NCBI RefSeq assembly: GCF_003173775.1
Contig: NZ_CP029552.1
Span: 4,715,001 to 4,779,000 of the forward strand
DNA from: Methylobacterium sp. 17Sr1-1
GTDB taxonomy: Bacteria; Pseudomonadota; Alphaproteobacteria; Rhizobiales; Beijerinckiaceae
DNA length: 64,000 nucleotides
Reading direction: 5' to 3'
Part shown: one piece after another, positions 55,616 through 59,388 of the stretch
How positions within the stretch are numbered: position 1 is the first letter of the stretch
Layout: each line of letters starts with the position of its first letter
Notes under the pieces: generated by a model
Told to the model about the DNA's origin: nothing
What the model saw: only the letters and a program-made list of their open reading frames with translations
The model's database searches: none
Position numbers and translations under genes: made by a program

Positions 55616-56559
55616 TGATGGACCGTCTGCCCTGCGTGCTGCTCAGCTCCACCACCGACATCCGCGGGCTGTACGGCGACGCGCTCGAGGCCATCGCCGA
55701 CCGGGTCGAGATCCTCGACCATCCGGCGGAGAACCCCGAGCGGGTGCGCCTGGCGCTGGGCTGGCGCCCGCCCGCCGACGCGCTGGCGCGCTACCCCAAC
55801 CTCGCGGCCCTCTGCTCGATCGCGGCGGGCGTCGACAACCTGCTCGCCTGCCCCGGCCGCCCGCCCGACCTGCCGGTGGTGCGCGTCGTCGATCCCGACC
55901 AGGCGCGGGCGATGTCGGGCTTCGTGCTCTGGCACGTCATCGGCCACCAGCGCCGCTTCGACGCCTATGCGGCGAACCAGCGCGACCGGGTCTGGCGCCG
56001 CCTCTGCCCGCGGGACGCGGGCGCGGTGCCGGTCGGGCTTCTCGGCTACGGCAAGATCGGCCGGCGCGTCGCCCGTGACCTCGCCGCCCTCGGCTTCCCG
56101 GTGCGGGCCTGGAGCCGGAACCCGCAGAGCCCGGATCCCGGCGTCATCCACCATCACGGGCCGGACGGGCTCCCGGCGATGCTCGGCGAGAGCGAGGTCT
56201 TGGTGAACCTGCTGCCGCTGACGCCGGAGACGCGCGGCATCCTCGATGCCCGCCTCCTGTCGCGCCTGCGCCCGGGCGGCTTCCTGATCCAGGTCGGCCG
56301 CGGCGAGCACCTGATCGAGGCGGATCTCCTCGCCGCCCTCGAATCCGGCCACCTCGCCGGCGCCGCCCTCGACGTGTTCGCGACCGAGCCGCTGCCGCCC
56401 GCGCACCCGTTCTGGGACCATCCGGCGATCCGCGTCACCCCGCACGAGGCCTGCGACGCGAGCCCCCAGGCCGTCGCCCGCACCCTGCTCGCCGCCGCCG
56501 AAGCGGTGCGGGAGGGACGGGTGCCGCCGGATACGGTGAATGCGGCGCGGGGGTATTAG
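55615..56559 (+). CDS. D-2-hydroxyacid dehydrogenase (GhrA-like glyoxylate/hydroxypyruvate reductase)
   Basis: The product has about 314 residues. The Rossmann motif is VGLLGYGKIGRRVARDLAALG, followed by NLLPLTPETRGIL, LLSRLRPGGFLIQVGRGEHLIEADLLAALESGHLAGAALDVF in broken family order, and the catalytic His in RVTPHEACDASP. The catalytic Arg and Glu (QVGRGEHL; DVFATEPLP) are present. Such enzymes reduce glyoxylate, hydroxypyruvate or related 2-keto acids with NAD(P)H. The start overlaps the ATPase stop (GTGATGATG); 55618 is equally possible. Confidence 0.9.
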   Translation: MMDRLPCVLLSSTTDIRGLYGDALEAIADRVEILDHPAENPERVRLALGWRPPADALARYPNLAALCSIAAGVDNLLACPGRPPDLPVVRVVDPDQARAMSGFVLWHVIGHQRRFDAYAANQRDRVWRRLCPRDAGAVPVGLLGYGKIGRRVARDLAALGFPVRAWSRNPQSPDPGVIHHHGPDGLPAMLGESEVLVNLLPLTPETRGILDARLLSRLRPGGFLIQVGRGEHLIEADLLAALESGHLAGAALDVFATEPLPPAHPFWDHPAIRVTPHEACDASPQAVARTLLAAAEAVREGRVPPDTVNAARGY

Positions 56560-56602
56560 GTAAAAGGTAAAATATTTTCAACAAACGCTCGAAGTATATG
56601 GC

Positions 56603-56832
56603 GCGGGATCCCCTCTTCAGGCGATGCCGGGCTTGCCAGAGATCCTTGCCCGGTATTGCTGCAAGGTGTGGGAGAGGGGTAGGGGCGATCGTAGATCGCG
56701 CAGGGTGACACGCCTCATTGTGAAGCTGTGACCGTCGTGCCGGCAGCTCGACGGTTCAGGATCATTACGGAAGCCGAGCCACCCTCACGCGGGATCTTCG
56801 ATCCCCACGGCCCCTCTCGCACACGGGAGAGG
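56603..56832. repeat. palindromic repeat (CCCTCTCCC family), copy 2, interrupted
   Basis: GATCCCCTCT and GTGTGGGAGAGGGGTAGGGG (left) face a right arm with CCCCTCTCGCACACGGGAGA. Compared with the copy at 50355, the left arm is split by about 46 extra bases near 56617-56662, and both arms carry an added GATCGTAGATC-like or GATCTTCGATC-like insert. The rest of the gap to rtcB (56833-57128) shows no gene. Confidence 0.75.
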
Positions 56833-57128
56833 GGAGATGCGCTTGATCATTATTCGAATGCATCAAGCGGCAATCGTTTGATCGTCGACGGCGTTCGGAT
56901 TGCCGTATGTCTTCCGGTGCGGTATCATCGAGAATGTGGACCGGGACGGGACCCGGCAGGAGGGCGAGCCATGGCAGTGGTCCATGCCCGCCCCGTCCTC
57001 TGACGGGGCAACGACGCGAGGATCCCCGCATGCGCGGCGGACCGGCGTTCTGATGCGGTGGGGCGGCTCGTCCGCTCGCCGAAGCTCGTCTCAAGGTCGC
57101 TGCGGCGACTCCGGAATCCACATCCCTC

Positions 57129-58346
57129 ATGGGCAAGTCCCTCATCGCCACGCGCGCCCCCGGCGTTCGCGTGGTCGCCTCCGCCTCGACCTGGATCGAG
57201 GGTGAGGCCCTGCGCCAGCTCGACGAGACCGGCGCGCTTCCCGGCATGCGCGAAACCGTCGGCATGCCGGACCTCCATCCCGGCAAGAACGGTCCGGTCG
57301 GCGCGGCCTTCCTGTCGGAGGGCCTGATCCGGCCGACCCTGGTCGGCTCCGACATCGGCTGCGGCATGGCGCTCTGGCAGACCGACCTGTCCCGACGCCG
57401 GGCCGATCCCGACAGGATCGCCGCCCGGCTCGACGGGCTCGACGCGCCGTGGGACGGCGACACCGCCGGCTGGCTCAGGCAGCGCGGCGTCTCGGCCACC
57501 GCCTACGACGCCTCCCTCGGCACGGTCGGGCACGGCAACCACTTCCTGGAGGTGCAGACCGTCGCCGAGATCCGCGATCCCGACGCGGCGGCGCGGATCG
57601 GGCTCGATCCTGCCCGCCTCGCCCTGCTGGTCCATACCGGCAGCCGAGGCCTCGGCGAATCGATCCTGCGGGCCCATACCGAGCGGTACGGCGCCTTGGG
57701 CCTCGAGGCCGACGCCCCGGAGGGCGAGGCCTACCTCGCCGCCCACGACGCGGCGGTCGCCTGGGCCCGGGCCAACCGCGACCTCGTCGCCCACCGGGCC
57801 CTCGCCGCCCTTGGCGGCGAGGGGCGATGCCTGCTCGATCTCTGCCACAACGGCGTCACGCCGGTGGAGGCGGGCGGCTGCCGCTGCCATCTCCACCGCA
57901 AGGGCGCGGCCCCGGCCGATCGCGGGCCGGTGGTGGTGCCCGGCTCGCGGGGCGACGTGAGCGTCCTCGTCGAGCCGGTGCCCGACCGGGCCGACACCCT
58001 GTGGTCGCTCGCCCACGGCGCCGGGCGCAAGCTCGGGCGGCACGAGGCGAAGGCCAAGCTCAAGGGGCGCCTGCGCCGGGAGGACCTCGCCCGGAATCCC
58101 TATGGCGGCGTGGTCGTCTGCGGTGACGAGCGTCTGCTGTGGGAAGAGGCGGCGCCGGCCTACAAGCCGGCCACCTCCGTCGTCGGCGACCTGGAGGCGG
58201 CCGGGCTGGTGCGGGTGATCGCGATCCTGCACCCGCTCGTCACCTTCAAGTGCTCGCTCGATCCGGACGGTCCGGCCCGGGCCGACAAGCAGGCCCGCCT
58301 GCGCGAGCGCCGCGGCGCCCGTGCGGCCAAGTACGGGGGGCGCTGA
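57129..58346 (+). CDS. RtcB family RNA ligase (PrfH-associated type)
   Basis: RtcB joins a 2',3'-cyclic phosphate or 3'-phosphate RNA end to a 5'-OH using GTP and Mn2+. The 405-residue product has [20 protein letters not shown], the metal cysteine in [63 protein letters not shown] and the guanylylated-His motif [12 protein letters not shown]. It is shorter than E. coli RtcB in the middle region, as in the RtcB2 group linked to PrfH. The next gene starts three bases after its stop. No RtcR regulator or RtcA gene is seen. Confidence 0.93.
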
Positions 58347-58348
58347 GG

Positions 58349-58984
58349 ATGGTCCTCTTGCAGCTCAGCGCTGGCCGCGGGCCCGGCGAATGCCGGCTCG
58401 GCGTAGCCGGCCTCTGCGACGTGCTGGTGCGGGAAGCCGCGGCGTCCGGCCTCTCCGCCAGGGTCGTGGAGACGGTGCCGGGCAGGCCCGGCCTGCTCTC
58501 CGCCCTCGTCCGCCTCGACGGCGACGAGGCGCGCGTCGAACCCCTGGCCCGGTCCTGGGAGGGCACGGTCCGGTGGACCTGCCCGAGCCCGCTCCGGCCG
58601 GGACACGGGCGCAAGAACTGGTTCGTCTCCGTCGCCCGGGTGGTGCCGCCGCGGATCGAGGATCTCGGCATCCGGGAGGCCGACCTGCGCTGGGAGACCT
58701 TTCGCGCGTCGGGCGCCGGCGGCCAGCATGTCAACACCACCGACAGCGCCGTTCGGCTGCACCACCGGCCGAGCGGCCTCGCGATCACCTGCGACACCGA
58801 GCGCAGCCAGCACCGCAACCGGGCGCTGGCCCTCGCGCGGCTCGGGCTCGCGCTCCGGGCGCGGGCGGAAGCTCGGGCGCGGGACGGCGCACAGGCGCGC
58901 TGGGCCCTCACCGTCGCGGTCGCGGATCGGGGCGGGAGCGCGGGGCGCGCCTATGCGGGGCCGGATTTCGCGCGGGTGCGATGA
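58349..58984 (+). CDS. prfH: peptide chain release factor homologue PrfH
   Basis: The 211-residue protein contains the peptidyl-hydrolase motif [18 protein letters not shown] (GGQ loop near residue 125) and [20 protein letters not shown], as in RF1/RF2. It lacks the N-terminal domain and the stop-codon-reading domain, which is the definition of PrfH. PrfH with its RtcB partner is established elsewhere as a system that frees and repairs ribosomes damaged in 16S rRNA. It begins three bases after the RtcB stop, with GAGG near the ATG. Confidence 0.92.
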
Positions 58985-59148
58985 TCGCCCCGGCCGGCCC
59001 GCACGGCCACGCTACCCCTCGTTAACCATTCGGCGCGCAGAGTCCCGGTGGCTGGGTTGACACGCCGCAGCGATATTTTTGGGCGGGTGGCTTCGTTTCG
59101 CTGAGTTGCGGGGATAAGCTTCGCCATGGCGTACCAGCCGAAGGGGGG

Positions 59149-59388
59149 ATGGACATGCTCGGGACAGTGACGGCCTTCCTGGCAATCCTGATGGTTCTGG
59201 CCCTGCGCAACATCGCCAAGGCGGCGCTGCTGCCGGTCTATGCCGTGCGCGACATCCATCGCGGGCGCTACGTCCGCGGGCTGGTGCTGCTCTCCTGCTC
59301 GGGGCTGGCCGCCTGGTCGATCTGGGCGATGACCCACACGGCCCGGACCAAGCCCGCCCCGGTGGCGGCGGTGATGTATACCGGCTGA
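59149..59388 (+). CDS. small membrane protein, 79 aa
   Basis: Two hydrophobic segments are readable (TVTAFLAILMVLALRNIAKA near residues 5-25 and VLLSCSGLAAWSIWAM near 46-61), joined by a basic loop (VRDIHRGRYVRG). This gives a two-helix inner-membrane hairpin. A purine tract AAGGGGGG precedes two close ATGs (59149 and 59155). TTAACCAT, a CtrA half-site sequence, occurs at 59032-59039. The family is not recognised. Confidence 0.7.
   Translation: MDMLGTVTAFLAILMVLALRNIAKAALLPVYAVRDIHRGRYVRGLVLLSCSGLAAWSIWAMTHTARTKPAPVAAVMYTG

Follow-up and report, generated by a model that had tools for sequence, protein, structure and literature searches.

A conserved leader ORF as the probable on-switch of the rtcB2-prfH ribosome repair operon in Methylobacterium, with leader ORFs in other proteobacterial lineages

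The closest documented counterpart of the locus described here comes from Pseudomonas aeruginosa, in which a 13-amino acid leader peptide, PA5471.1, encoded about 250 bp upstream, controls armZ (PA5471), an RtcB-like gene (PRK09588) that is co-transcribed with PA5470/prfH (PMC12057347, PMC13041342, PMC3516279). According to the available parts of these papers, a terminator is abolished when ribosomes stall, and the system is induced by ribosome-targeting drugs; a review among the three notes that attenuation as the mechanism has yet to be confirmed. ArmZ is described there as an anti-repressor of MexZ that is induced by ribosome-targeting antibiotics, and PA5470 as a factor that relieves macrolide stalling. 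The E. coli K-12 homologue is given as inducible by 4-azaleucine in the accessible text of PMC3516279.

The second point of reference is the E. coli rtcB2-prfH operon which, as far as the available text of its description goes, protects against colicin E3 but not against the tRNA-targeting colicins E5 and D (PMC9223846). How cut ribosomes are sensed and how the production of RtcB2 and PrfH is timed has been answered, in the literature accessible to us, only for Pseudomonas. The word ‘leader’ is absent from the main text of PMC9223846 and PMC6514570, and a search of the titles and abstract openings listed, with most subscription papers outside its reach, found no report of leader ORFs for rtcB2-prfH outside Pseudomonas.

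Here, we compare with these systems an rtcB2-prfH locus in a 64,000-nucleotide stretch of Methylobacterium sp. 17Sr1-1 (NZ_CP029552.1, positions 4,715,001 to 4,779,000), hereafter referred to as the window (Table 1). What is new at this locus is a conserved leader ORF; the operon itself belongs to a known family.

Table 1. Features of the rtcB2-prfH locus, numbered from the first base of the window.
Feature	Coordinates	Strand	Remarks
Candidate sigma-70-type promoter, TTGCCG-17-TATCAT	56900..56928	+	Consensus match only
Conserved leader of rtcB2-prfH	56911..57128	+	Aligned in 7 other complete window-like loci; L072 from 56951
Putative ribosome-binding site of the leader ORF, GGAGGGCG	56959..56966	+	With the bases to 56970, three alternative partners
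Leader ORF, MAVVHARPVL	56971..57003	+	ATG at 56971, stop at 57001-57003; 11 codons including the stop
Perfect 8-bp hairpin, GCCCCGTC-CTCT-GACGGGGC	56990..57009	+	Over the end of the leader ORF; stem invariant in 8 aligned loci
Alternative SD partner, GGCTCGTCC	57065..57073	+	9-bp helix, 8-locus alignment
Second alternative SD partner, GCTCGTCT	57084..57091	+	8-bp helix, at least 85% of 8 loci pairing per position
rtcB2, RNA ligase RtcB family	57129..58346	+	405 aa; NCBIfam models, tree, residue columns
prfH, peptide chain release factor H	58349..58984	+	211 aa, read from the ATG at 58349; GGQ

The gene pair and its distribution

Judged by curated protein models, the pair is an rtcB2-prfH operon and an additional member of the known family. 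The RtcB of the window scores 461 bits against NF007153 (cut-off 407) and 408 bits against TIGR03073 release_rtcB (cut-off 271.8), and its PrfH reaches 195 bits against TIGR03072 release_prfH (cut-off 166.65; all NCBIfam). An earlier, sequence-only reading of this DNA had assigned the pair to RtcB and PrfH, and this is borne out by the models, the RtcB tree and the parallel divergence of both proteins. It had also placed three bases between the genes; rtcB does lie directly upstream of prfH, but the gap is two bases long (TGA-GG-ATG). As a catalogued defence system the pair was not recovered by PADLOC.

Residues C78, N137, H138, H169, H256 and H296 of the window's RtcB occupy invariant columns in an alignment of 19 RtcB2 proteins. 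We take these to be the catalytic residues of RtcB, with metal and guanylylation roles for the Cys, Asn and His side chains, and infer that RtcB2 and PrfH are enzymatically active in the window organism. We built a quick tree with 118 RtcB rows, leaving out L062 because its rtcB is frameshifted; in it, the window's protein falls into a starred clade of eight Methylobacterium sequences, all of them prfH-linked, rather than outside the prfH-linked group. Five other RtcB rows, namely the other RtcB-family gene of the same genome and four longer RtcB, lie outside with a support of 88; a very long branch leads to one of them. RtcB2 and PrfH have diverged in parallel, their distances correlating with an r of 0.795 (n = 96; 0 of 999 permutations as high).

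L073 (G000:C1:2805704-2806726) is a second, very divergent RtcB-family gene of 461 aa from a plausible ATG that scores under the cut-offs of the NCBIfam RtcB models and has a very long branch in the tree; the ORF after it reads like dnaX. A starred clade joins four RtcB2 genes of myxobacteria, near which no prfH was seen, with one Comamonas sequence (L089, L093, L098, L104, L094), a grouping that suggests a solo RtcB2 lineage plus a transfer.

The solved structures closest to the window's PrfH are PrfH chains (7sa4, 9mor), followed by RF1/RF2. Its residues 3-187 align with residues 112-295 of RF1; the missing part is therefore domain 1, and the codon-reading domain 2 is retained in altered form. 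This corrects the sequence-only reading, in which PrfH had no codon-reading domain. The same reading had counted an intact stop-codon-recognition domain as evidence against a PrfH assignment, a point that holds only insofar as the PrfH family retains its modified domain 2. GP in place of GG and an SXY ‘anticodon’ followed by Arg are given as marks of PrfH in the available text of Baranov 2006 (PMC1586002). The window's protein retains GGQ, has GP instead of GG and carries the Arg after the SXY-type site, the third residue of which is Leu (SPLR); this decoding motif occurs in 12 of 96 PrfH, with SPYR in 27 and SPFR in 23. The PrfH proteins of L048, L050 and L051 have an odd decoding loop (e.g. 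IDGSLRSGKGRRNW) in which the SPYR-type motif is missing.

A retained domain 2 would also suit a third release factor with other signals, as proposed in 2006 (PMC1586002, available text), in which case PrfH would terminate translation at an unusual stop signal and RtcB would be an unrelated neighbour. The correlated distances of the two proteins speak against this, as does the reported action of the E. coli pair on colicin E3 damage in the accessible part of that work, and we regard it as very improbable.

The operon is sporadic and, within the window's Methylobacterium group, found mostly at one place. Counting the window's own, 12 of the 111 genomes searched in the genus have a PrfH over the cut-off: nine have window-like operons and three have loci with about 52-53% RtcB identity. 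In the assembly of one of these three (G063), rtcB is frameshifted and prfH is interrupted by a stop. L062, L064 and L068 represent a second, independent Methylobacterium rtcB2-prfH lineage, which has a leader ORF of its own that encodes 28 aa; the copy in L062 is broken. Of the eight other window-like loci, seven have the window's flanking genes on at least one side of the pair. In G010 (L072), the similarity to the window is confined to the pair and its leader, and in G104 the pair is split across two contig ends. At a candidate empty site in genome G102, the dehydrogenase is followed by other genes, and gain can therefore not be distinguished from loss. In the order sample, RtcB2 is over the cut-off in 23 of 397 genomes (own counted), with a prfH match beside it in 22 of these 23 loci; the exception, L032, has 365 nt of DNA after rtcB. 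Five of 385 genomes in the class sample pass E 1e-70, and in the plasmid collection an RtcB relative with an E of 1e-40 or lower is present in 32 records, a few of which are chromosome-sized.

The leader in Methylobacterium

The preceding gene ends at 56559, which leaves 569 bases up to rtcB. A 290-bp gene-free leader had been claimed for this region; it is longer than that, and its part from 56911 to 57128 holds a conserved leader ORF. Among the seven other complete window-like loci, the aligned block starts at 56811/56812 in two, at 56896/56911 in four and at 56951 in L072, and the DNA just 5′ of the block is mostly unaligned. A second copy of the leader in the genome was looked for and discarded, the next best match having an E of only 0.055; as a known Rfam RNA, the leader gave no match over the gathering scores in the window and 12 fetched loci. 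An inverted repeat (CCCCTCTC-GCACACGG-GAGAGGGG) at 56811-56834, in a less conserved intergenic part, is perhaps a dispersed intergenic repeat.

The leader ORF starts 158 nt upstream of rtcB2 and encodes 10 aa. Its SD, ATG, frame, 11-codon length and stop are kept in all nine window-like loci, the peptides being MAVVHARPVL in the window, MESIHARPVL in six loci, and MECIHARPVL and MECIHARPVR in one locus each. In an alignment of eight loci, i.e. those other than G104, the block consisting of SD, ORF and hairpin is 95.0% identical and the ORF alone 94.4%; rtcB codon positions 1, 2 and 3 have 92.9, 94.9 and 78.7% identity, and the leader parts that follow the block, two in number, 84.3 and 72.2%. 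All changes within the ORF are non-synonymous among the eight aligned loci, and the ninth adds a synonymous one; evidence for coding is thin within Methylobacterium. With SD, frame and stop kept and the codon changes non-synonymous, the evidence favours a conserved frame and RNA, not a conserved peptide sequence. A chance ORF was rejected on the shuffle counts reported below and on a conservation on par with the second codon positions of rtcB, and from these comparisons the conserved leader ORF is very likely real.

Upstream of the ORF lies the only promoter-like site in 56540-59150 (shuffles mean 0.1), the −35-like stretch of which can be aligned in seven of eight loci. The stop codon of the ORF sits inside the perfect 8-bp hairpin, and three conserved segments can pair with the SD region, each to the exclusion of the others: the end of the ORF (56994-57001), 57065-57073 and 57084-57091. 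The segment 56935-57128 folds with a z of −2.69, none of 200 shuffles being as stable. Three conserved helices score at least 18, a number found in none of 60 column-shuffled alignments, in which single helices reach a score of 26.4. In the 57065-57073 helix, a single pair shows compensatory change, and this in one sequence, a result equalled by 65 of 500 shuffles, and the 8-locus alignment has none in the alternative leader structure. When a ribosome was positioned on the leader in folding simulations of the eight loci, the rtcB2 start was not opened consistently. The search of 56540-59150 for terminator-like sites gave none; a separate terminator scan, which scored none in any of 59 loci, is uninformative.

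Leader ORFs in other lineages

Other loci were searched with two rules, both set after the sequences had been seen and applied to loci that are related rather than independent: a strict one (ATG 45-260 nt upstream, SD match of five bases, 6-30 aa, stop ahead of rtcB) and a relaxed one, used for all groups (four-base SD match, 8-30 aa). Start codons were picked by rule, and in seven of eight re-checked rows an ATGGGC lies 15-24 nt further upstream. Under the strict rule, a leader ORF is present in 59 of the 95 prfH-linked loci for which 200 nt or more of upstream DNA are available, a set that includes three RtcB pairs identical across two collections (L126/L035, L140/L036, L092/L033); shuffles yielded a mean of 4.2 and a maximum of 10, and the antisense strand of the same loci gave 10. 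By clade, the strict rule finds the ORF in 36/36 gamma/beta, 8/8 window-like, 10/19 second alphaproteobacterial and 5/34 other prfH-linked loci. RtcB2 loci with no prfH seen gave 1/16; at least four of them (L097, L105, L150, L032) end no more than 365 nt after rtcB, and prfH may therefore be cut off there.

The relaxed rule recovers all 36 gamma/beta loci (shuffles mean 3.4, max 9), all eight window-like loci (0.9, max 4) and 18 of the 19 loci of the second alphaproteobacterial clade (2.4, max 6). The remaining prfH-linked loci (8/34; shuffles 5.0, max 11) and the RtcB2 loci without prfH (1/16; 1.9, max 5) stay near chance. The leader ORF hence recurs in three RtcB2 clades. Arg-Pro was considered as a shared motif of alphaproteobacterial leaders and dropped, being present in only 8/19 (shuffles mean 2.1, max 7).

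In the gamma/beta clade, 31 of 35 leaders examined contain GCAGG within the ORF, and all 31 have CCTGC downstream, 41-62 nt before rtcB2; GCAGG is missing in L144, L146, L154 and L158 as well as in the E. coli locus of strain 19KM1831. These 31 leaders display a chain of complementary segments, chosen by eye, that pair as 1:2, 2:3 and 3:4. Segment 1 (SD region, CTGYAAAGG type) pairs with segment 2 (CCTTTGCAG in the ORF) over at least 7 bp in 22/31, and segments 2 and 3 (GCAGGYC with GRCCTGC type) over at least 7 bp in 28/31. For segments 3 and 4, the latter beside the rtcB2 start, the pairing is of the CCAA/TTGG type in 16/31 and weaker or different in the rest. Mean helix scores for own-locus, shuffled and cross-locus pairings are 17.3, 10.4 and 16.6 for 1:2, 19.1, 10.1 and 17.4 for 2:3, and 15.1, 10.5 and 13.3 for 3:4; own-locus scores thus exceed those of shuffled segments and, less strongly, those of cross-locus pairings. 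In the flank of the 2:3 helix, covariation did not stand out, with 52 of 72 cells paired and 2348 of 10000 shuffles as high. Read from the sequences, this chain has the layout of an attenuator.

The gamma/beta leader peptide has 13 aa in 23 of 36 loci and 14-20 aa in the other 13. In two hand-picked groups (12 and 10 loci, all with 13 aa), the first half of the peptide varies, and codon differences are mostly non-synonymous (46 synonymous vs 294 non-synonymous in one group, 56 vs 207 in the other). Such variation suggests that ribosome transit and the RNA matter in these leaders, not a specific amino acid or peptide.

The same data have to be weighed against a constitutive or protein-regulated repair operon, the leader of which would be a protein-binding or structural RNA element with an incidental ORF. 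The mostly non-synonymous changes in the ORF, the negative accessibility simulation, the weak covariation and the lack of such an ORF in Skermanella and in most of the 34 remaining prfH-linked loci agree with it. An incidental ORF would, however, hardly keep its SD, ATG, length and stop in nine of nine loci or recur in 36/36 and 18/19 loci of two other clades, and for P. aeruginosa, control of this gene pair by a leader peptide is documented. We therefore consider an incidental ORF unlikely.

Proposed ribosome sensing and comparison with known systems

Our analysis favours control of the rtcB2-prfH rescue and repair operon by a leader-ORF attenuator, to which we assign a probability of roughly 0.7. 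The short conserved leader ORF would then probably be an on-switch that senses slow or damaged ribosomes and, going by its conservation, is plausibly the trigger of rtcB2-prfH. The sequence-only reading had called the trigger open; the leader ORF now provides a candidate. That the leader is translated and switches in Methylobacterium, and that such ribosomes are its inducer, we infer.

In healthy cells, ribosomes would traverse the 10 codons of the leader, and RNA further downstream would hold rtcB2 expression low. Cut or inhibited ribosomes would dwell on the leader and keep its ribosome-binding site and the end hairpin open, whereupon the alternative pairings would change and rtcB2-prfH be expressed. 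If the E. coli operon is a guide, PrfH would enter ribosomes cut in the 16S decoding centre and hydrolyse the peptidyl-tRNA, the subunits would part and RtcB2 would re-seal the 2′,3′-cyclic-phosphate/5′-OH break. With stalled damaged ribosomes switching the operon on, they would thus trigger their own repair.

Regarding partners and toxins in the genome, no RtcA was found, in line with the sequence-only reading (PF01137, 0 matches; E. coli control found), and the PIN domain gave seven matches. MazF/PemK gave 0 matches with the control found. Searches for colicin-E3-type RNases (PF09000; controls score only below the cut-off) and for CdiA-type TPS (uninformative, as the control was never detected either) likewise gave 0 matches in the genome. 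The operon may imply exposure to rRNA-cutting toxins, as the sequence-only reading held; since the documented leader system answers ribosome-targeting drugs generally, ribotoxins need not be the sole cause. The operon could serve mainly in tolerance of ribosome-targeting drugs or translation stress instead of defence against rRNA-cutting toxins. Such a role would match the antibiotic-induced anti-repressor ArmZ and the relief of macrolide stalling by PA5470 in the available P. aeruginosa literature, the absence of MazF and, weakly given controls below the cut-off, the lack of an E3-type RNase match. Yet the E. coli pair protects against colicin E3 and not against E5 or D (PMC9223846, available text), and the accessible sources describe the MexZ role for Pseudomonas only; we hold a mainly drug-related function to be decidedly unlikely.

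Outside the genus, the nearest row is a locus on a plasmid of Skermanella rosea (L191; 65% RtcB identity). Here, too, rtcB is followed by prfH, but the plasmid is mobilizable, a polynucleotide kinase-phosphatase gene lies a few genes away from the pair, and no leader ORF was found upstream of rtcB. AAA ATPase and nuclease-domain genes are also nearby, and the surroundings are possibly an RNA-repair island.

With E. coli rtcB2-prfH (ATCC 25922; PMC9223846, available text), the window shares the gene order and the RtcB2 and PrfH families. In a different E. coli strain, 19KM1831, an SD-bearing leader ORF (MTNPLSMTLCRPFQD, followed by a stop) starts 241 nt ahead of rtcB2. The E. coli RtcB copies among the matches listed are about 46-47% identical to the window's RtcB, and the leader sequence and RNA segments differ. 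In the other enterobacterial loci examined, the leader ORF lies 121-196 nt before rtcB2, and the E. coli leader (L192) may therefore carry an insert.

The likeness to PA5471.1-armZ-prfH is closer: a leader peptide precedes an RtcB-like PRK09588 gene, which is followed by prfH, and the window's RtcB is over the PRK09588 cut-off. The window's leader peptide has 10 rather than 13 aa, starts 158 nt rather than about 250 bp upstream and differs in sequence, and ArmZ has the additional role of a MexZ anti-repressor, described for Pseudomonas only in the sources available. The PA5471.1 system moreover has a terminator, of which no counterpart was found in 56540-59150; the window's leader would therefore work like the PA5471.1 system rather than be one. 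We lean slightly towards leader-ORF attenuation as a common ribosome-damage sensor for RtcB2-PrfH in several proteobacterial lineages, with the control of ArmZ/MexXY as a later add-on and with an RNA architecture of its own in Methylobacterium. If leader ORFs are general for rtcB2-prfH, the literature on ArmZ/MexXY induction and that on ribosome repair by PrfH would describe one circuit.
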